From Thamnidium elegans (taxonomy: Eukaryota > Mucoromycota > Mucoromycetes > Mucorales > Mucoraceae): a stretch of 64,000 bases of DNA. Positions within the stretch are counted from its first letter, which is position 1. Every line of letters starts with the position of its first letter. Under the pieces are notes generated by a model. It was given only the letters and a program-made list of their open reading frames with translations, was not told the origin of the DNA and searched no databases. Shown one piece after another: positions 14,538 through 25,497 of this stretch. The stretch lies in assembly GCA_025201345.1 (NCBI GenBank), contig JAIXMG010000021.1, positions 406,501 through 470,500 of the forward strand. Direction: 5' to 3'. A program made the position numbers and the translations under genes.

Positions 14538-16107
14538 ATGTTTCTTCATCGTAAGCGTCAATATATATATATATATATATATTGCATGTATTAATCGAAT
14601 ATTTAATCATTTCCCTCCTTTAGGAAGCGGCAATACTTGGTACCAAAAAGCACAAACATATTACGATAGTCAAAATCATGACCTAGCTTTTCTCTATTTC
14701 ACAAAAGCGGCCAAGTCCAACCACACACTTGCCCAAGTATTCCTAGGCCACATGTACGAGCACGGCCAAGGCACAATGCAGGATGACACTGAGGCATTGT
14801 ACTGGTACACACAGGCCAAAGAAACCAGCGACGCAGAGCACCAACTCGTAATAGCGTACATGTACCACGACGGAGACATAGGCGGTATAAGTGACCACAA
14901 GAAATCACTGGAATGGTTCCAAGTATCCGATAAAAACGGCAACCCTCGTGCATACAGCTGTATCGCAATTTTATACGGTACTGGTAAAGGGACCGAAAAA
15001 GATTGCAAGCTAGCATTGAGTTCATCGATGCAATTTGAAAAAGATAAAAGTAGCAGTAATATTTTAGTAGATGTAGCAACAACTTACTTATTTGGTAAAC
15101 ATAGCGTGGATCAAGATTTCGATGAAGCAGAGTCTTGGTTTATAAAGGGTGTCGATAAAGAAGAGGAAGATGCCATGTTTGGTATGGGCTTATTGTACGC
15201 TATACGTACAGACCAAAATCAATGCTGGAAGAAGGCCTATCTGTGGTATACCGAAGCTGCTAAACACAACCATGATAGAGCTCAGTGTGCTTTAGGGTGG
15301 CTGTACCAACACGGACTTGGCTGTAGAAAAAATTATACCATAGCTATGCAATGGTATAAAAAAGCAAAGAAAAACGGAAACCAAGATGCTATTGCTTACA
15401 TTGCGTCTTTCTATCATTACGGGTACAGTGTACCTGTAGACTATTTAAAAGCTTTATCCATATACGAAACGGCAATAAATAATGCAAATGCGTTGAACGG
15501 TAAAGGACTCATGTATCAAAGCGGGTCAGGTGTAATTCAAAGCCATAGTGTGGCCATGTCGTATTTTAAAATAGCCGCTGATTTGGGTTACAGTGAAGCC
15601 TTTAATAGTATCGCAGAAGTATACCAGCATGGATACGGTAGAGACGTAGATTTAAATAAGGCATTTTCTTATTATAACAAATCAGCTACATGCATTGAAA
15701 GTGTATCTAGTAAAGGGATGTTTAACCTGGGGCTAATGTATTTGGAAGGTCTAGGAACAGAAATCGATCAAAGATTAGCATTGGTTTGGTTACGGAAGGC
15801 AGCGACTTATGGAAACAAAAGAGCTAGCGAGTATATAGATCAACTGGTCAAGAGTTCGACTCAGTTACCGCAAATCATTTATAATACAGAAAGGATTCAA
15901 GTGATTATGAAGGAGAGGATACTACAAGGCATTCAATTACAAACACTGCAAGAGAAATTAGCTAGTCTTACAACCGAAAACGAGTTATTGAAAAAGATGG
16001 TGACAAATAATGGGACAAAAAGAACAGAACCGTTAAAGTTCCTTTATGTTCAAAACACAGAAACTATTGATTTGGAGAAGGCACCCAAAAAGTTCCTTCA
16101 AATTTAG
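14538..16107 (+). CDS. Sel1-repeat (SLR) protein, array copy 1
   Basis: A 13-nt first exon (14538-14550, MFLH plus one base) is joined across a phase-1 intron (GTAAGC donor, CTTTAG acceptor) to exon 2 (14624-16107), giving 498 aa. The body is a solenoid of about a dozen Sel1 repeats with the A..LG.MY..G.G pattern (for example AQVFLGHMYEHGQGT, AQCALGWLYQHGLGC). After the repeats come SSTQLPQIIYNTERIQV, a coiled coil (LQTLQEKLASLTTENELLKK), a linker with PLKFLYVQN and the end KAPKKFLQI. No signal peptide or membrane segment is seen, so it is probably intracellular. SLR proteins act as adaptors in signalling or ERAD; the target here is unknown. The first stretch (14640-14960) has more C and G than the rest. 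Confidence 0.88.
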
Positions 16108-16513
16108 GATTTTCATGTAAAATAAAAATATGTATGTTTAAAAGCGCCTTTTTATTAGTTTTTTTTTTCACTGATTACGACTTGGGTTTTCCCCCAAGGT
16201 GCTACATAAATTAAACTTTTACTTGTCTAACATTAATATTTGGGGGGGGGGTTTAATTGTCAAAAAGTATCCAACACTTCGGTAAATCTGTATGTTACAA
16301 TTACTGATAAAAATACGCTACATAAACACACAAGAATAGATTTCAAGTTATTTGTTTTATCATAGGTTGCGAAGAGAGTTCACGGTGTCACACACATGTG
16401 TTACCAATACGGACGTAATATCCTTTTTATTTTCTTTTCTTGATTCCTTTTTCTCTCTTTTTTTTTTTTTTTGCTTTTCTATTTTTTCGTTAAAAAAAAA
16501 TAACCTAGTACCT
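16108..16513. other. Spacer between Sel1 copies 1 and 2
   Basis: It contains a 3' flank shared with other copies (ACTTGTCTAACATTAATAT at about 16221-16239), a G10 run near 16241, a block at 16262-16310 that resembles the block upstream of copy 3, and the TTACCAATA element at 16401-16409. Confidence 0.45.
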
Positions 16514-17149
16514 ATGTTTATATTTGATTCTAGTAAGTATTTCATTATATTCAGGATACACCCTTATTTGAGCTAACACTCTCCTTCTCTTTAGAATCCG
16601 GTAAAGAATGGTTTCAAAAAGGTGAAACCTTCTACAAAGCACAAGTATACAACCAAGCCTTCATATTTTTTTTACAAAAGCAGCCGAAGTAAATCACACG
16701 CAATCTCAACTTGCTTTAGGCGATATGTACATTCAAGGCCAAGGAACCGCCGAAGATTTCAAGAAGGCATTATTCTGGTACAGAAAAGCAGCAGATAAAG
16801 GACAAATGTGTGCTTTGCTGCTGTGCCTCGAGCTGTCAGTAGTACTGAAGTAGATCAATTGAGTATAAAAGAAACTCAATTGCATAGCCCGAAAGAAAGG
16901 CTAGCAAGTCTGATAGCAGAAAATGAATTATTGAGAAAGGATACCACAAGTAACGAATCAAAAGATACAAATACCTCGAGCAAAGATAAAAAACTAGAAC
17001 GGCTAAAGTTTTTTGAAGTTCAAAATGAAAATGTAATTACAGAAAAGAAGAAACCAGTAAAGTTTTTTTCATTTGTAGTCTTAACTCTAAAAAATTTCCC
17101 CTTTTTTATGGTCCATAAAAAAACGAAACGGATACTCGTATCACGTTGA
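16514..17149 (+). pseudogene. Sel1-repeat array copy 2, broken by frameshift and internal deletion
   Basis: The first exon (16514-16532, MFIFDS plus one base; GTAAGT donor) and the TTTAG acceptor at 16594 are intact. Exon 2 reads SGKEWFQKGETFYKAQVYNQ and then loses frame in an 8-T run at about 16666-16673; 6 or 9 T would restore it. Past this point the shifted frame encodes one more Sel1 unit (LALGDMYIQGQGTAEDFKK) and stops abruptly around 16800. It is fused to the C-terminal region: the coiled coil (KERLASLIAENELLRKD), LKFFEVQNENV and KKPVKFFSF. About ten repeats are therefore missing compared with copies 1 and 3. The C-terminal part remains open to 17149. Whether it is transcribed is unknown. 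Confidence 0.82.
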
Positions 17150-17533
17150 TACGAGGAACAAGTGTTTTCCCTCTTTTAAAAATACCCCCAACAACTCGGT
17201 AACAGTATGTTACAATTTCTTGTAAACGACAGAAATAACAATAATAAAAAAGAGTAAAAAATTGCATACATATACATATAATCTTTTACTAAACCTTCTT
17301 TTAAAATCACCCAATATCTCGACCGTTGTGTATTATTTGGATCACAAATAATAAATATGCTTTTTTCTTTTTTTAAAAAAAGGTTATCGTATATCTTATG
17401 ATAGGCTTAGGCGTTTGATTTATGATACTACAGTCATATTATGTGTCACCAGTAAAAACATTTAATCCAAGCCCGTGTTCCCTTCTACTTTTTAGTTCCT
17501 TTTCTTTTTCTTTTTGTAAAAAATCCAAGCATC
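17150..17533. other. Spacer and promoter of Sel1 copy 3
   Basis: Holds a block around 17187-17215 (CAACAACTCGGTAACAGTA, then TGTTACAATT) that resembles the one upstream of copy 2, and a TCACCAGTA element at 17446-17454, 80 bp before the first exon. Confidence 0.4.
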
Positions 17534-19033
17534 ATGTTTAGTTTTCTCAAACGTTGGTATACATTCGTAGTATGCTTTTTGATGCTGTTAAACTAATAAT
17601 TTATGATACTCTCCCTTTTCCCTTTAGAGTCTGACACAGAGTTGTTCGAAAAAGGAAAGACACACTTTGATAATCAAAACTATTCGAAAGCCTTGGAGTA
17701 TTTTGTAAAATCACACGAAGCTGGTCATTTAGCATCTAAGACGTATATAGGAAAAATGTATTATGATGGTTTAGGAATGACAAAAGACTATAATACGGCG
17801 TTAATTTGGTACAAATTGGCAGCAGATGTCGAAGAGCCTGCTTCACAGTATATGATTGCGATCATGTACCACGAAGGAAAAGTAGGTAGTAACCCAGATT
17901 ATCAACAGGCGTTGGAATGGTATCAAAAATCGGCTAAAAATGGCTATATTAGCGCTATGAAATGCTTTGCTCTAATGCATTTTGAAGGGCAAGGGACTGC
18001 GAAAAATCACCGTATAGCATTGTATTGGTTTAAAGAAGCATTCGATAAAGGCGACAGCGATACTGTTTATTTAATTGCGCTCATCTATCTTCTTGGTGGA
18101 CATGGTGTTGATCGAGATTTTGATTTAGCAGAAATCTGGTGTATGAAGATTGTGGCTAAAGAAACCCCACAATCGATGCTTATAACAGGAATGCTATACG
18201 GCTTTCGTGATGACTCTAAGCAAAGCTGGGAGAAGGCTTTCGAATGGATGACGAAAGCCGCAAAGTATAATGTTGGCGCCCCACAAATGTTGCTAGGAAA
18301 TTTTTACCTGGATGGACTAGGATGTGAAAAAGATTATAATTTAGCTATAGAGTGGTATAAAAAAGCAGCGGAAAATGGAGAGAGGACTGCTATCGCTCAA
18401 ATTGCAATCATGTACCATTATGGGTATGGTGTACCCGTGAATTATAATGAAGCTTTAAGATTATATCAAAAAGCTGGAGATTGCGGAGAAGCATTGAATG
18501 GTATAGGGATATTATATCAAGGTGGACTTGGTGTATACCAGAGTCATAGTGCTGCAATGTTTTATTTTGAAAAAGTGATAGAAATGGATTTAAATGACGC
18601 TTTTAATAGCATTGGAGATGTCTATAAGTATGGATACGATAGAGATATGGATTTAGAAATGGCATTTAATTATTACACTAAATCTGCAAATTCTTTTGAC
18701 AAAGATGGTATGCTTAATCTCGGACTAATGTATATGGAAGGCTCAGGAACTAAAGCCAATAAGGACCAGGCATTGTATTGGCTTCGAAGGGCAGACTTAT
18801 TTGGAAAGGAAGAAGCCAAAAAATTTATCGACGAAATTGTTGCTGATTCAACACAGTTGCCCCAAATTATTGATAATACAGAAATTAGTAAAGAACAACA
18901 GTTACAAATATTGGAACAAGAAATAGCAGCGTTAATGGCCAAAAAAAAGTTACTGTTAAAGAATATCACAAAAGATGATAAGACAGATGTAACTACAAAA
19001 AAGAAGAAATCAATGAAATTTTTCCAATTATAA
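17534..19033 (+). CDS. Sel1-repeat (SLR) protein, array copy 3
   Basis: First exon 17534-17552 (MFSFLK plus one base; donor GTTGGT is weaker than in copies 1, 2 and 6). The phase-1 intron ends CTTTAG and exon 2 is 17628-19033, giving 474 aa. About eleven Sel1 units are visible, such as SKTYIGKMYYDGLGM, ISAMKCFALMHFEGQG and LALIWY-type helices, and the duplicate-prone part LLGNFYLDGLGCEKDYN. The C-terminus has TQLPQIIDNTEISKEQQLQ, a short coiled coil (LEQEIAALMAKKKLLLK) and the end KKKKSMKFFQL. No signal peptide. Its 3' half is nearly identical to pseudogene copy 5, which suggests recent duplication or gene conversion. Base composition is A/T-rich like its neighbours. Confidence 0.88.
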
Positions 19034-19639
19034 TCTTTTACTCGCCTTTCTTTTTTATCTTTTTCAAATGTATCACAAGAAATGAGCTACTACTTGGCCA
19101 GCATTGACACGAGAAAATATACACTTTTACAATAAAATGAATTGGCTAAGTTTTTTGTAATGGTGCTTTTCAAATAAAACCTGACGAAAATAAACATTTT
19201 CGGCAAGAGAGAATACATATGTATGTGCCACTTTGTTTACTTGGGCGTTTTTTAAATATAAGTTGTAAATAAAAATAGATCCAATCATAATCTTTAATTC
19301 GAACCTTATTTATAAACACATCAACGCTTGCCTTTTTTCTCTTTTGTTTTCTTTTCGATAAAAAAGAAACCATACAAAAAGAGTGACTCTTGAATTTATA
19401 ACATGAGTATACGGCACAATCTACCAATTTTGAAGAATATCCGGTAACTGTAGGTGACAATCGCTGCTAAAATAAAAACAATACCAAGAATCGGTATTTT
19501 TAAGTTAGTTATTGTTTGTCTTTGGCTTAGGAAAATAAGTTTAATACAATAATACATGCATATCTTGCGTGAGTCACCAATATGAATGTAAGCCTTTTAT
19601 TTTCGTTTTCTTTTTATTTCTTTTTAAAATATTATTATC
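19034..19639. other. Spacer between Sel1 copies 3 and 4
   Basis: Its first 150 bp is a 3' flank also found after copies 4 and 5 (AGCATTGACACGAGAAAATA at about 19099). Further on lies the TCACCAATA element at 19574-19582, 58 bp before the first exon of copy 4. No additional exon seen. Confidence 0.45.
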
Positions 19640-21075
19640 ATGTTTAATTTTAATGAACGTTAGTATATATTTAAGTGTACTCTTCAATGCTGTTATGCTA
19701 ATATTGTATTACTTTCTCCACCCCTTTTCCTTTAGAACGTGGAATCGAGATCTTCGAAAAAGGAATAACATGTTATAAAAGGAAAAATTATGAGCAAGCT
19801 TTTTTGTATTTCTCAAGAGCGGAACAGTTTGGTCATGTTCGATCCTTAACTTATTTAGGAAAAATGTACCAGTTCGGGTTAGGAACAACGAAAAACTGTC
19901 GTAAGGCATTATCTTTGTACAAATTAGCAGCTGAAAACGCCGATGCTTTGGCCCAGCGAATTCTTGGGCGTTTGTATTATGAAGGAGAGATAACTGGTAG
20001 ACCGGATTATAAACAGGCGTCGGAATGGTTTCACAAGTCAGCTAATAATGGCGATTCTACTGCATGTAAATATCTTGGGTTTATGTATCTGGAAGGAAAG
20101 GGAACGAATAAGAATTACAAAAAAGCTTTAGAATGGCTTAAGCAAACGGTAGATAAAGGTCATAATGATACTTCATCTATTATTGGAGAAATCTACATTT
20201 ATGGTGACTACGGCGTTGACCAAGATTTTAATTTAGCGGAAACTTGGTTTCTGAAGGGTATGAATGAAAACGACTTACGGTCACTATATGGAATGGGACT
20301 ACTATGCGGTGTACGCAATGACTCCAAACAAAGTTGGAAGAAGGCTTTTGAATGGTTTACTAAAGGTGCAAAATGTAATGAAAGTAATGCACAAAATTCT
20401 CTAGGAGAAATGTATCAGGATGGACTGGGTTGTGAAAAAAATTATAAATCAGCTATGAAGTGGTATGCATTAGCGGCGGAAAATGGAAATATGAACGGCT
20501 TTGCTAATATTGGAACTATGTATCATTATGGATGCGGTGTAACAATAAATTATAAAATGGCTTTGGAATTTTATAAAAAAGCAGGTGATTGTGGAGAAGC
20601 ATTGAATGGTATAGGGTTATTGCATCAAGGCGGGCTTGGTGTACTGCGAAACCATAATACTGCAATGATACATTTTAAAAAAGCTGCAGAGAAGGAATCG
20701 AGTGGCGCTTATAATAGTCTTGGAGATACTTATAAATATGGATACGGCACAAATGTAAATTTACAATTAGCCTTCAAGTATTATACTATATCAGCAAATT
20801 GCTTTTCTCAAGACGGTATGCTTAACCTTGGATTAATGTACGCGGAAGGTTTGGGAACTAGAGCCAATAAGGATTTGGCATTACGTTGGTTTCGAAGAGC
20901 GGAACTATTTGGGAATGAACAGGCGAAAAAATATATCCATAAAATCGTTAGTAGCTCAACTCAGTTACCTCGAATCATTAATAGTGCAGCAAATAGAAGA
21001 GAAAGCCCGAATCAGGCCTTCAACGATGCAGCCGCACGAATCAAGGCAGTAAGGCGGGGCTTGGGAATAGAATGA
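19640..21075 (+). CDS. Sel1-repeat (SLR) protein, array copy 4, short C-terminus
   Basis: First exon 19640-19658 (MFNFNE plus one base; GTTAGT donor), phase-1 intron ending TTTAG, exon 2 19736-21075, giving 452 aa. Sel1 units such as LTYLGKMYQFGLGTTKN, ACKYLGFMYLEGKGTNKN and NSLGEMYQDGLGCEKN run almost to the end. Unlike copies 1, 3 and 6 the tail after SSTQLPRIINSAAN is a short basic segment ending VRRGLGIE, with neither coiled coil nor KFF ending. Just downstream (21076-21125) the translation SSKKTNVATKKKN matches the tail of copy 3, so the tail was lost by mutation rather than replaced. Repeats suggest a protein-binding scaffold; function unknown. Confidence 0.85.
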
Positions 21076-21348
21076 TCCGAATAGTTCTAAAAAAACAAAT
21101 GTAGCCACAAAAAAGAAGAATTAAACCACTACTTGTCTAGCATTAATATGAGAAAGTATATACTTTTAAAATAAAATAAATTAGCTAGGTTTCTTATAAC
21201 GGAAAATGATGAGCTTTATTTTATTGTACTATGGCAAAGAAGTTGGCACTTTTGGTAGCAGAAAATGAGCTATTACAAATAGGGACATAATATACGTATA
21301 AACCTAAATTTCCCTTTTTCGTTCTTTTTCTTTCTGTTTTTAAAAAGT
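21076..21348 (+). pseudogene. Remnants of Sel1-family C-terminal tails
   Basis: Two fragments. Positions 21076-21125 continue the lost tail of copy 4 (KTNVATKKKN). Positions 21231-21290 read MAKKLALLVAENELLQIGT then stop, clearly related to the coiled coil of copies 1, 2 and 6 (LASLIAENELLRK). Between them lies the shared 3' flank (TTGTCTAGCATTAATATGAG at about 21137). The second fragment sits downstream of that flank, so it is probably left over from another deleted copy. Confidence 0.6.
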
Positions 21349-21356
21349 TATCACCA

Positions 21357-22950
21357 TGTTAATTTTAGCGAAAGTTAGTATATATTTGAATTATACTATT
21401 CAATAAAGGCGATAGTGACAGTGCAACTTTTACTGGGTTAGTCTACACTCTAGTAAACACGGTGTTGACCAAGATTTTGATTTAGCAGAAACCTGATGTA
21501 TGAAGGATGTGACTAAAGAAAACCCAACTTTGATATTTGTAACAAGGCTATTATACGGCTTACGTGATGACTCTAAGCAAAGCTGGGAGAAGGCTTTCGA
21601 ATGGATGACGAAAGCCGCAAAGTATAATGTTGGCGTCCCGCAAATGTTGCTAGGAAATCTTTATCGGAATGGACTAGGATGTGAAAAAGATTATAATTTA
21701 GCTATAGAGTGGTATAAAAAAGCAGCGGAAAATGGAGAGAGGACTGCTATCGCTCAAATTGCAATCATGTACCATTATGGGTATGGTGTACCCGTGAATT
21801 ATAATGAAGCTTTAAGATTATATCAAAAAGCTGGAGATTGCGGAGAAGCATTGAATGGTATAGGGATATTATATCAAGGTGAACTTGGTGTATACCAGAG
21901 TCATAGTGCTGCAATGTTTTATTTTGAAAAAGTGATAAAAATGGATTTAAATGACGCTTTTAATAGCCTTGGAGATGTCTATAAGTATGGATACGATAGA
22001 GATGTGGATTTAGAAATGGCGTTTAATTATTACACTAAATCTGCAAATTATTTTGACAAAGATGGTATGCTTAATCTCGGACTAATGTATATGGAAGGCT
22101 CAGGAACTAAAGCCAATAAGGACCAGGCATTGTATTGGCTTCGAAGAGCATATTTATTTGGAAAGGAAGAAGCAAAAGATTATATTGACGAAATTGTTGC
22201 AGGCTCAATGCAGTTACCCGAAACCACTGATTTTGTTTTTGTTTTGTCTTAAGTGTAAACTTTATTGATTCATTAAGCGAGAAGGAAAAATTAAAATAAA
22301 GATAAAAAGACTAGTTCGCAAGAAAAGTTGGTTAATTGAACTCTATTTTTCAAAAGTGGTATTATTTGAGTTAAAATTATTAATGGCGTTATTGTGGTCT
22401 TGTTGGAACATTTGTTAAAGGGCTGTACTAGACCAGGATTTCTCCTGTATAACACAGAACCGGTGGTATCTCCAAAAGGTAGAGAAAGCAGTTCCTACTA
22501 TGACAAATATATCATCTGGTATCGATTTCATCTTATTTGATCGGAGTGTACCAGTTGTACTTGATAAATATGTTAAAGCAGTCCAGATAGCGAGTTTGTT
22601 GGGAAATCGACTTTGCATGCATAATAAAAGACCAGTATATCCATTCGTGGCCACAATCAACTGTCATAGGAAAAAGATCTTCCAATAATGATTCCAAATA
22701 TGTATTTTTTTCTTTAGCCCCAATACAGTCTTGTAGTATTCGTCGCCAAGGTGTAAAAACCCAAACCATTGATAGTACAGAAATTAGTCAAGAAAAATAG
22801 TTACAAACATTGGAGCAAAAAATAATAGCGTTAATTGCAAAAGAAAAAAGAAAAAGAGTTACTGCTAAAGAATACTACAAAAGATGTTACGATAGATGTA
22901 ACTGCAAAAAAAAAAAAAGAAGGAACCAATGAAATTTCTACAATTATACT
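21357..22950 (+). pseudogene. Sel1-repeat array copy 5, decayed and interrupted
   Basis: A degenerate first exon at 21357 resembles those of copies 3 and 4. The sequence then jumps into mid-gene homology (about 21405), so the first several repeats are deleted. A TGA at 21495 replaces the tryptophan codon of copy 3 at the matching site. From about 21555 to 22195 the frame is open and nearly identical to copy 3 positions 18205-18845, with only scattered differences. The end is broken at 22232 by about 527 bp of foreign sequence. The tail resumes at 22759 (TIDSTEISQE, then a stop) and continues with frameshifts to EPMKFLQL near 22945. An open frame 21500-22252 (250 aa) survives but is unlikely to make a normal protein. 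Confidence 0.82.
22232..22758. mobile_element. Probable small insertion inside Sel1 copy 5
   Basis: A block with no counterpart in copies 3 or 4 splits the tail of copy 5. It is bordered by an imperfect direct repeat, ACCCGAAACCACTGAT at 22216-22231 and ACCCAAACCATTGAT at 22759-22773, which looks like a target-site duplication or the edges of a microhomology event. Minus-strand frames inside it read WRRILQDCIGAKEKNTYLES and, in another frame, SRFPNKLAIWTALTYLSSTT, as if they were fragments of a decayed gene. No terminal inverted repeats or transposase motif were recognised. Confidence 0.4.
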
Positions 22951-23256
22951 TGTCTGAAGGTGCCACAAGAACTAAAGTACTACCTCTAATCTAACATTAA
23001 CGTGATAAAGTATATGCTCTAAAATAAAATAATTTAGAGAAGTTTCTTATAATGATATGCTATAGTTACTTTTAAGGCGAAGCAAAAAAGTAAAGAATAC
23101 ATGCGTGTATGCCGCTTTGTTTACTTGTTTAGAGTTCAAGGCTATGGTACTACCAATAAGTCTTGTACGTGCTACAACTCCCCCCCCCCCTTTCCTCCCA
23201 CACTTTCAACTTTTTTGTTCCTCTTCTTCTTTCTTTCTAGAAAAAAAGAATTCACT
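22951..23256. other. Spacer between Sel1 copies 5 and 6
   Basis: Contains the shared 3' flank (TCTAACATTAACGTGATAAA at about 22991), a C11 run near 23180 and a TACCAATA element at 23151-23158, about 100 bp before the first exon of copy 6. Confidence 0.4.
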
Positions 23257-25497
23257 ATGACCATTTTTCGTAAGCAACAAAAAGTACATTTTTCTCGACT
23301 ATTAAACTAATATATCTAATTCTCTCCTCATTTTTTTTTATATAAAGAGACGGGTGAGGACTGGTACCGAAAAGCAAGAGTTTACCATGATAGCAAAAAC
23401 TACACGCGAGCCATACTTTACTTCACCGAAGCCTCTGAATTCAACCACGTCCGATCTCGGTTTTACCTAGGACGTATGTACGAAGAAGGCAAAGGAACCA
23501 CAAAAGACTACTTTGAAGCTTTAAAATGGTACAAGAAAGCAGCAGAGCTCGGGGACGTCGAAAGTCAGTACAGTATCGGTATCCTTTACTACCATGGCAA
23601 AATAGGAGACCAACCAGACTACGAAGAAGCTCACTACTGGTTTAAAATCGCTTCTGATAACGGAAACAGTAACTCTCAAACATATATGGGCACGTCTTAT
23701 GTCTGGGGAAAAGGCGTAAAAAAAAACATCCCCTTGGCTATCGAATGGCTCTTAAAGTCATCTAACAATGACCAAAACCCTTACGCACAGTATAATTTAG
23801 GCACTTTGTACCGAGATGGTAACGGTGTTGAAAAAAACTATGCAGTTGCTTTGAGCTGGTTCGAAAAAGCCGCAGAAAAAAACCATCCGTCTGCTCTGTA
23901 TAACGCTGGACTATTCTATAAAAACGGATATGGTATAGACCGAAATTATATGGAGGCATCACAGTTATTTCTCAAGGCTTTTCATTACGGAAACACAGCT
24001 TCTGCTTATTATCTAGCTCAAGTATACTACTATGGTGATACGAGCTTACCAAGAAACTATAACGAAGCATTGCATTGGTTTAAAAAAGCTGCAGGTACAA
24101 AAGAAAACACTGCTGAAGCCCAAAATTATATCGGCAACATGTACCAAAAGGGACTTGGCATGAAATCAAATTACGAGCTGGCAATGGAATGGTATCAAAA
24201 ATCTGCAAGCCTTGAAAACAACATTGCTCAATCAAATATTGGGATTTTGCATTTGGACGGTATCGGCGTTCCAAAAGACGGAGAAAAGGCTCTTGAATGG
24301 TTCCAAGCAGCAGCTAAGAACGGTAACATCAGCGCATATGAGATGCTCGGAAACATGTACAGAAGAGGAAAGGGCGTTGAAAGGGATTATAAAACCGCAC
24401 TAAGTTGGCTTATTATTGGATCTGAAAAGGGACTTTCCAGTGTCTTGTTTACGATTGGAAATATATTTCGTATGGGAGGGTACGGTATTGATCAGAATTA
24501 CGATAAAGCAGAGACATGGTTTATGAAGGGTGTAGAGAAACAAGATCTTGAGTCGGTATTTGGCATGGGTTTACTGTACGATATGCGTAAGGACTCAAAA
24601 CAGAATTGGAAAACGGCCTTTGGATGGTATACAAAGGCCGTAGATAAACTAGGCGCACAAATTAATCTGGGACGCATCTATCAGTTCGGACTTGGACGTG
24701 CCAAAGACTACTCTGAAGCTATGAAGTGGTATGAAAAAGCAGAGGCAAATGGAAGTTGTGAAGCTACTGCTCATATCGGTACTTTGTACCATTACGGACA
24801 GGGTGTACCCACCAATTTAACAGAGGCTTTAAACATGTACGAAAAGGCTGGAGATTGTGGAGCTGCATTAAACGGTAAAGGTCTATTGTACCAGAACGGA
24901 CTTGGCGTAACTCAAAACCATGATACTGCAATGTTTTATTTCGAAAAAGCAACAGAGTTTGAATACGGCGATGCTTTTAATAGTATAGGTGATGTGTACA
25001 GATATGGATACGGTAAGGCGGTAGATTTAGATACGGCGTTCATGTATTATACAAAATCTGCTGAATGCACTGAGCATATATCAAATCTGGGTCAATATAA
25101 TCTTGGGTTAATGTACTTAGACGGACTAGGAATCGAGGTCAATCAAAACTTGGCTTTATTTTGGTTAAGAAAAGCAGCAAAATATGGAAACGAAAAAGCA
25201 GACGAGTATATCGATCGAATTGTTACAAGTTTAGTACAGTTGACACCGGTACCCCACAGCGCCGAAGATATGCAATTGATAATACAAGAATCGCGCTTAA
25301 AAGACATGCAAATACAAAGCATGGAAGATAGAATAGCCAGCCTTATAGCAGAAAACGAAATATTGAAAAGAAAATGTAAAACAGAGAGTACGTCGTTTGA
25401 GAATGAAGTATCGAAATCTATTAGGGGACCTCGAAAGTTCTTTGAAGTGTTGGAATCAGAAGAAAAGAAGACACCAAAGAAATTTTTCCACGTATAA
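23257..25497 (+). CDS. Sel1-repeat (SLR) protein, array copy 6 (longest)
   Basis: First exon 23257-23269 (MTIF plus one base; GTAAGC donor), phase-1 intron ending AAAG at 23347, exon 2 23348-25497, giving 720 aa. This copy has roughly sixteen Sel1 units, several more than its neighbours (for example SRFYLGRMYEEGKGTTKD, YAQYNLGTLYRDGNG, LYNAGLFYKNGYG, YNLGLMYLDGLGIEVN). The extra units lie in the N-terminal half. The tail holds a coiled coil (MQSMEDRIASLIAENEILKRK is its register with one M), a RKFFEVLESEEKK element and the end TPKKFFHV, so two KFF-type motifs. It lacks signal peptide and membrane segments. Its 5' region uses more C-ending codons than copies 3 and 4, like copy 1. Confidence 0.9.

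Follow-up and report, generated by a model that had tools for sequence, protein, structure and literature searches.

What a row of Sel1-repeat genes in the mould Thamnidium elegans (Mucoraceae) might serve, and whether the short tail borne by several of them is a functional element, are the questions raised by this locus. The window, a stretch of 64,000 nucleotides, covers C14:406501-470500 of the T. elegans assembly (34.1 Mb, 64 contigs). It contains six Sel1-repeat gene copies, all in one head-to-tail series on the plus strand; copies 1, 3, 4 and 6 are open, and copies 2 and 5 are broken. A tandem array of this composition, with tail remnants, had been proposed by an earlier sequence-only reading, and is borne out by the frames, the coordinates and the DNA comparison; the gene-level claims on the array are firm. 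The tail begins with a predicted long helix, followed by one to four short P-x-[KI]-F-F-x-[VLI] units. The explanation we favour, with a confidence somewhat below even, is that the array encodes cytosolic Sel1 scaffold paralogues, which would pair through the long helix and dock through the tail to a common partner.

Wherever the 5′ end can be read, in five copies (1, 2, 3, 4 and 6), the gene fits the plan that the sequence-only reading had described: a micro-exon of 13-19 nt, a phase-1 intron, and then one large repeat exon for the remainder of the gene. Copy 1 (14538..16107) has a 13-nt exon 1 at 14538-14550, an intron of 73 nt (14551-14623) and exon 2 at 14624-16107, encoding 6 Sel1 stretches, the helix, and a pair of tail motifs (16030-16050 and 16084-16104). 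Copy 2 (16514..17149, the end being approximate) is broken; it retains a 19-nt exon 1 (16514-16532), an intron of 62 nt and exon 2 from 16595, the majority of its repeats are gone, and two tail motifs (17000-17020 and 17054-17074) survive. Copy 3 (17534..19033) consists of a 19-nt exon 1 (17534-17552), an intron of 75 nt (17553-17627) and exon 2 (17628-19033), with 7 Sel1 stretches and a single tail motif at 19010-19030. Copy 4 (19640..21075) is open and tailless: its 19-nt exon 1 (19640-19658), intron of 77 nt (19659-19735) and exon 2 (19736-21075) encode 8 Sel1 stretches and the C-terminus RRGLGIE. Copy 6 (23257..25497), the longest, has a 13-nt exon 1 (23257-23269), an intron of 78 nt (23270-23347) and exon 2 at 23348-25497, giving a frame of 715 residues with 13 Sel1 stretches. 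The splice models follow GT..AG, with acceptors picked by hand to keep the frame. The donors of copy 3 (GTTGGT) and copy 4 (GTTAGT) are unusual; the splice of copy 3 is matched exactly by a deposited partial T. elegans protein (BDF21DRAFT_425802, P0004), all 412 residues of which are identical to the spliced copy 3 translation.

The shared architecture claimed for the array is present there and is not specific to it, as both the micro-exon and the tail are also found in Sel1 genes on other contigs. Ten Sel1 genes elsewhere, picked for a visible upstream ATG micro-exon, were modelled, and nine of them fit a 13-nt exon 1 followed by a phase-1 intron (58-92 nt); in the remaining one, L044, micro-exon and donor are as in the others, with the acceptor pattern unmatched. 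A tailed Sel1 gene on contig C23, on the other hand, is a single open frame with no micro-exon, and the start of its deposited protein lies inside that frame. The plan therefore belongs to a larger group of Sel1 genes and not to every one of them. Exons so small are easily overlooked, and a first exon of 13-19 nt provides a practical annotation marker for such genes. Within 350 bp upstream, on either strand, 12 of 15 genes examined carry the word CTAAGCC, eight of the 15 being close copies of one subfamily; the 12 include a Rab-like gene described below. CTAAGCC occurs 9 times in the window against 4.5 expected, a count reached by 2 of 100 shuffles, and three of these sites (14459, 17404 and 19524) precede Sel1 copies. 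It is a weak candidate for a promoter signal. A longer promoter block is found at three sites only, C14:382k (L047), C22:151k (L043) and L042.

The proteins had been described as free of kinase and chitin-synthase domains, and a Pfam scan of five open reading frames in the window agrees. Sel1 (PF08238) is found in all five, with E values of 7.2e-51, 2.4e-61, 8.3e-65, 4.5e-34 and 8.8e-114 for copies 1, 3, 4, 5 and 6, and with scores of 116-368 bits against a curated cut-off of 30.7; all other families listed fall below their curated cut-offs, with no kinase or chitin synthase among them. As to the claimed absence of a signal peptide, the N-termini, judged by eye, do not look secretory. The proteins would be cytosolic and might act as free-standing adaptors. 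The six pairs of copies 1, 3, 4 and 6 have ratios of non-synonymous to synonymous substitution rates (dN/dS) of 0.14-0.37, and the ten pairs formed by five paralogues from other contigs have 0.26-0.41. The broken copy 5 gives 0.51 against copy 3 and 0.19-0.32 in its remaining pairs. These ratios point to a family under purifying selection for most of its history, and no diversifying selection was seen in the paralogue comparisons.

For copy 6, AlphaFold predicts a superhelix of Sel1 helix pairs at a mean predicted local distance difference test score (pLDDT) of 86.2, and Sel1 proteins rank first among solved structures. The predicted repeats extend to residue 629, mostly above 90, and are followed by a long C-terminal helix at residues 638-679 (25261..25386); residues 677-715 score below 50. 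The two tail motifs (25429..25494), PRKFFEV at 25429-25449 and PKKFFHV at 25474-25494, the latter forming the final seven residues, lie in this stretch of predicted disorder. Sel1 superhelices are protein-binding scaffolds. The groove of the superhelix would hold a client, the long helix would pair the proteins into dimers, and the flexible tail, with its one to four motifs, would dock to a common partner, so that the dimeric adaptors would gather their clients on it. The tail may be an undescribed attachment signal.

In a hand-made list of 18 tail-motif instances, 14 have the proline, 16 the lysine, 16 the first phenylalanine and 15 the second. The lysine count is generous to the motif, because the list includes just one of seven genes with isoleucine in that place (the KPLIFFEV type), and P-x-[KI]-F-F-x-[VLI] is a fairer form than P-x-K-F-F-x-[VL]. 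In the window, a terminal motif [KI]-[FYI]-[FL]-x-[VLI] is found in three of the four open copies, as KFLQI in copy 1, KFFQL in copy 3 and KFFHV in copy 6. The conserved tail reported from the sequence is thus seen in these copies and in genes elsewhere, with the reservations that copy 4 has none and copy 3 only a single motif. We compared seven tails (copies 6, 1 and 3, the C23 protein, L039a, L043 and the Rab-like protein) with 20,000 shuffles each. None of the 20,000 shuffles attained the two motifs of copy 6 or the four of the C23 protein, and 0.005% attained the two of copy 1. Single motifs arose more readily, in 0.7% of shuffles for copy 3, 0.6% for L039a and 3.4% for the Rab-like tail; L043 has no K form. 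A motif at the very C-terminus was reached by 0.01-0.08% of shuffles.

The array appears to be part of a larger Sel1 expansion in T. elegans, which would grow and decay by gene duplication and loss. A search of the genome with copy 6 returned at least 106 matches, falling into about 40 places by our own grouping. Twenty regions were fetched and 16 of them scanned for the tail, leaving out L051-L054, which hold another Sel1 type; tail matches in other frames that were judged by eye to be chance hits were discarded. The tail lies next to a Sel1 gene in eight of the 16 regions, on nine genes, two with K and seven with I; two of the nine tails are not in frame with the long open reading frame, and one follows a stop. 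One region, C22:223300-228500 (L042), has a Sel1 frame of 1320 codons in which several 36-residue repeats of identical score follow each other in 108-nt steps, as if recently homogenised. The single-copy gene on C23 (C23:673409-674900, L048, protein P0145) encodes four K-[FY]-F motifs. Its three orthologues, which include those of Mucor flavus and Helicostylum pulchrum, show 81% identity in the search and 83-85% when aligned, and all three keep the four motif positions with small changes. Beyond the orthologues, those among the best 120 of 245 matches reach at most 35% identity, and the named ones are mostly bacterial, with some from Mortierellaceae; within the limits of this search the family looks narrow. 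Among the best 120 of 341 matches to the copy 6 protein, the named fungal ones listed are P0001-P0004 and P0112. The close relatives returned carry no family name, being deposited as hypothetical protein or labelled in UniRef as 'HCP-like protein', 'Uncharacterized protein' or 'Beta-lactamase', which agrees with the earlier suggestion that the family may be undescribed. Helicostylum P0002 and Mucor flavus P0003 retain the helix and the double motif, ending in DPIKFFHL and DPIKIFHL. The Helicostylum pulchrum protein P0001 (874 residues) has two array-like Sel1 blocks in series, as if tandem copies had fused.

Presented as a feature of the Sel1 array, the tail proves to be more widely placed: it occurs on the C23 gene, which has no micro-exon, and also on a protein with a Ras fold. 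The gene of the latter is single-copy (C13:57426-58504, L092) and corresponds to a deposited T. elegans P-loop nucleoside triphosphatase, P0121, which matches Pfam Ras at E 1.6e-20. P0121 has an intact G1 loop, with DTDN and VGNA in place of the DTAG and GNKxD of its relatives, and nucleotide handling is therefore doubtful. We aligned 16 of 24 matches, including P0121 and its Mucor flavus orthologue. Thirteen of the 14 aligned Rab relatives end in two cysteines (spaced in one of them), whereas P0121 ends in EEPIKFFKL and has no C-terminal cysteines. Its predicted model (mean pLDDT 71) has a long helix at residues 193-238, then a low-confidence stretch before the tail. The model of the Mucor flavus orthologue, P0122, stops early and has no tail. 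The sharing of the tail with a Rab-like protein, seen in one gene of one species, is suggestive and not settled. A broader proposal would make the motif a portable docking or assembly signal of the Thamnidium-Helicostylum-Mucor flavus lineage. The expanded Sel1 scaffolds would bear it, as would a degenerate Rab-like protein in which it replaces the membrane-anchoring cysteines, and both would belong to an undescribed signalling or trafficking system possibly assembled by the tails; we consider this proposal rather unlikely. A motif common to many scaffolds and found once on a Rab-like protein provides a handle, as identifying its binder would make the purpose of the expansion testable.

Several observations weigh against the explanation we favour. 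The AlphaFold model of copy 6 does not show the tail docked onto its own repeats, and dS is 2.0-3.3, near saturation, in five of the six pairs among the open window copies. Isoleucine stands for lysine in seven of the nine tailed Sel1 genes elsewhere, and the tail is missing from eight of the 16 scanned regions. Copy 4 is open yet has no tail and Helicostylum P0001 stops after the helix without a motif; therefore the tail is not indispensable. The genome-wide DNA counts show no enrichment over reversed controls, with 21 sites against 18 for P-x-K-F-F-x-[VLI-type]-stop, 41 against 31 for P-x-K-[FY]-F-x-V, and 12 against 16 for [DE]-P-x-K-F-F. Such counts would suit a repeat family undergoing ordinary birth and death, in which the tail is an inherited C-terminus of no separate function and its likeness to the Rab-like tail coincidental, as would the breakage of copies 2 and 5, the tailless copy 4, the tailless Mucor flavus model of the Rab-like protein and the ease with which shuffling reaches its single motif. 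We regard this explanation as possible, if on the unlikely side, since the four C23 motifs are kept in orthologues that are about 84% identical, the repetition of the motif exceeds shuffling in copies 6 and 1 and in the C23 protein, and the motif forms the very last residues across different Sel1 subfamilies. The sites of the C-terminal pattern argue in the same direction: among the 21, taken from both strands, only three have 100 or more codons of open frame upstream, and these belong to two Sel1 genes and to the Rab-like gene; upstream frames at the remaining 18 reach at most 64 codons, and shorter last exons would escape this reading. Five of the 41 P-x-K-[FY]-F-x-V sites are in Sel1 tails already known; 12 of the 41 were translated and none of these reads as a C-terminal tail, and one that adjoins a Sel1 locus on C64 is out of frame. 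Two of the 12 [DE]-P-x-K-F-F sites were already known (C10 and C13).

Functions other than docking to a common partner might also account for the tail. The core of Atg8-interacting motifs, or LC3-interacting regions (AIM/LIR), is [FYW]-x-x-[LIV], usually with acidic residues before it. Most of the 18 listed tail instances match this core (FFHV, FFEV, FFKL), and the scaffolds might accordingly be tethered to autophagy; the core is however very permissive, FFSF and IFHL fall outside it, the preceding acidic residues are mostly missing, and such motifs do not call for the K conserved before the core, the P at -3 or the conserved second F, making this a distinctly improbable account. Still harder to sustain is the idea that the genes are known fungal Sel1 adaptors in disguise, Hrd3/SEL1L of ER degradation or Chs4/Skt5, even though they share the repeat and SEL1L (E 2.8e-40) and Hrd3 (E 1.2e-4) chains turn up among the sequence matches. 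Higher scores go to bacterial Sel1 proteins, and the close relatives found bear no family name. SEL1L/Hrd3 would be expected to have a signal peptide and a membrane anchor, and N-termini such as MFLHRSG and MTIFQTG read by eye as non-secretory. Chs4/Skt5, the chitin synthase activator, has a C-terminal prenylation box of the CaaX type. The ends KFLQI, KFFQL and KFFHV of copies 1, 3 and 6 have no prenylation cysteine, and neither they nor RRGLGIE of copy 4 contain such a box. The tail could, finally, be a self-assembly motif, the K-F-F-x units acting as short beta segments through which the scaffolds would join, perhaps together with the Rab-like protein, in the manner of amyloid signalling in fungi. 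The tetrapeptide KFFE is known to be amyloidogenic, and a pair of linked KFFE units aggregates, fastest with a linker of intermediate length (PMC3497264); copy 6 contains KFFE with a second motif 15 residues further, and the C23 protein has four motifs. The linkers tested in that work were of 4-8 residues as opposed to at least 8 here, and the peptides were thioflavin T-negative and mostly disordered. The prolines and charges around the motif and the tails with a single motif are unfavourable as well, and self-assembly appears improbable.

The array is flanked upstream by a gene with the core domain of a class II aminoacyl-tRNA synthetase (read as seryl-) and downstream by an FMN reductase. 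Matches between copies longer than 300 nt show 64-73% DNA identity, except for 91% over 835 nt between copies 3 and 5, and apart from this pair the array is therefore old. Between copies 4 and 5 lies a coiled-coil tail remnant (21231..21290, plus strand) that translates as MAKKLALLVAENELLQIGT and then a stop. Copy 5 (about 21316..22950) has a remnant 5′ end and has lost most repeats 5′ of 21398; it keeps an open stretch with 4 Sel1 stretches (21497-22252) and a tail remnant (22760-22948). Its 3′ end is interrupted by an interspersed repeat (22232..22759, edges approximate, no strand assigned), a piece of which (22255-22750) has 22 further genome matches at 68-89% identity; by eye, the words flanking it resemble a short target-site duplication. 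Elsewhere, the 24-mer CCGCATAAATTTTTTGACCTATAA recurs with an identical upstream frame at C10:7028, C17:520628, C19:562, C20:502182 and C32:292555, and is probably a dispersed repeat.

In the open-licence literature we found no description of the family, nor of its tail or exon plan, and the main text of the T. elegans genome paper (PMC7928374) nowhere contains 'Sel1'. Other Sel1-like repeat proteins belonging to PF08238, such as 6ok3 of Oxalobacter formigenes, are of the same Pfam family, to which the long C-terminal helix, the repeated K-F-F tail and the fungal micro-exon plan do not belong. SEL1L/Hrd3 and Chs4/Skt5 likewise use Sel1 repeats in eukaryotic adaptors, and are set apart from the window copies by the C-termini and, as read by eye, the N-termini considered above. 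P0121 has the Ras fold and intact G1 in common with Rab GTPases, and departs from them in its altered DxxG and NKxD boxes and in the K-F-F tail that stands in for the cysteine pair. The Mortierellaceae kinase-Sel1 proteins P0112 and P0180 have fungal Sel1 repeats at 32% and 28% identity and are listed in Pfam with protein kinase domains; an automatic scan did not find the terminal motif in P0112. Sel1 expansions in Mucoromycota are already known from PMC8647823, PMC7550596 and PMC8778642. A parallel in gene number is offered by Rhizophagus irregularis and other Glomeromycotina, likewise a Mucoromycota lineage with Sel1 genes in high copy (PMC8647823, PMC7550596). Some Glomeromycotina Sel1 proteins are linked to kinase or MLKL-like domains, and the Sel1 domain of the MLKL-like proteins is said in PMC8778642 to have 'no clear function in fungi', whereas the five reading frames scanned in the T. 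elegans window carry Sel1 repeats alone.

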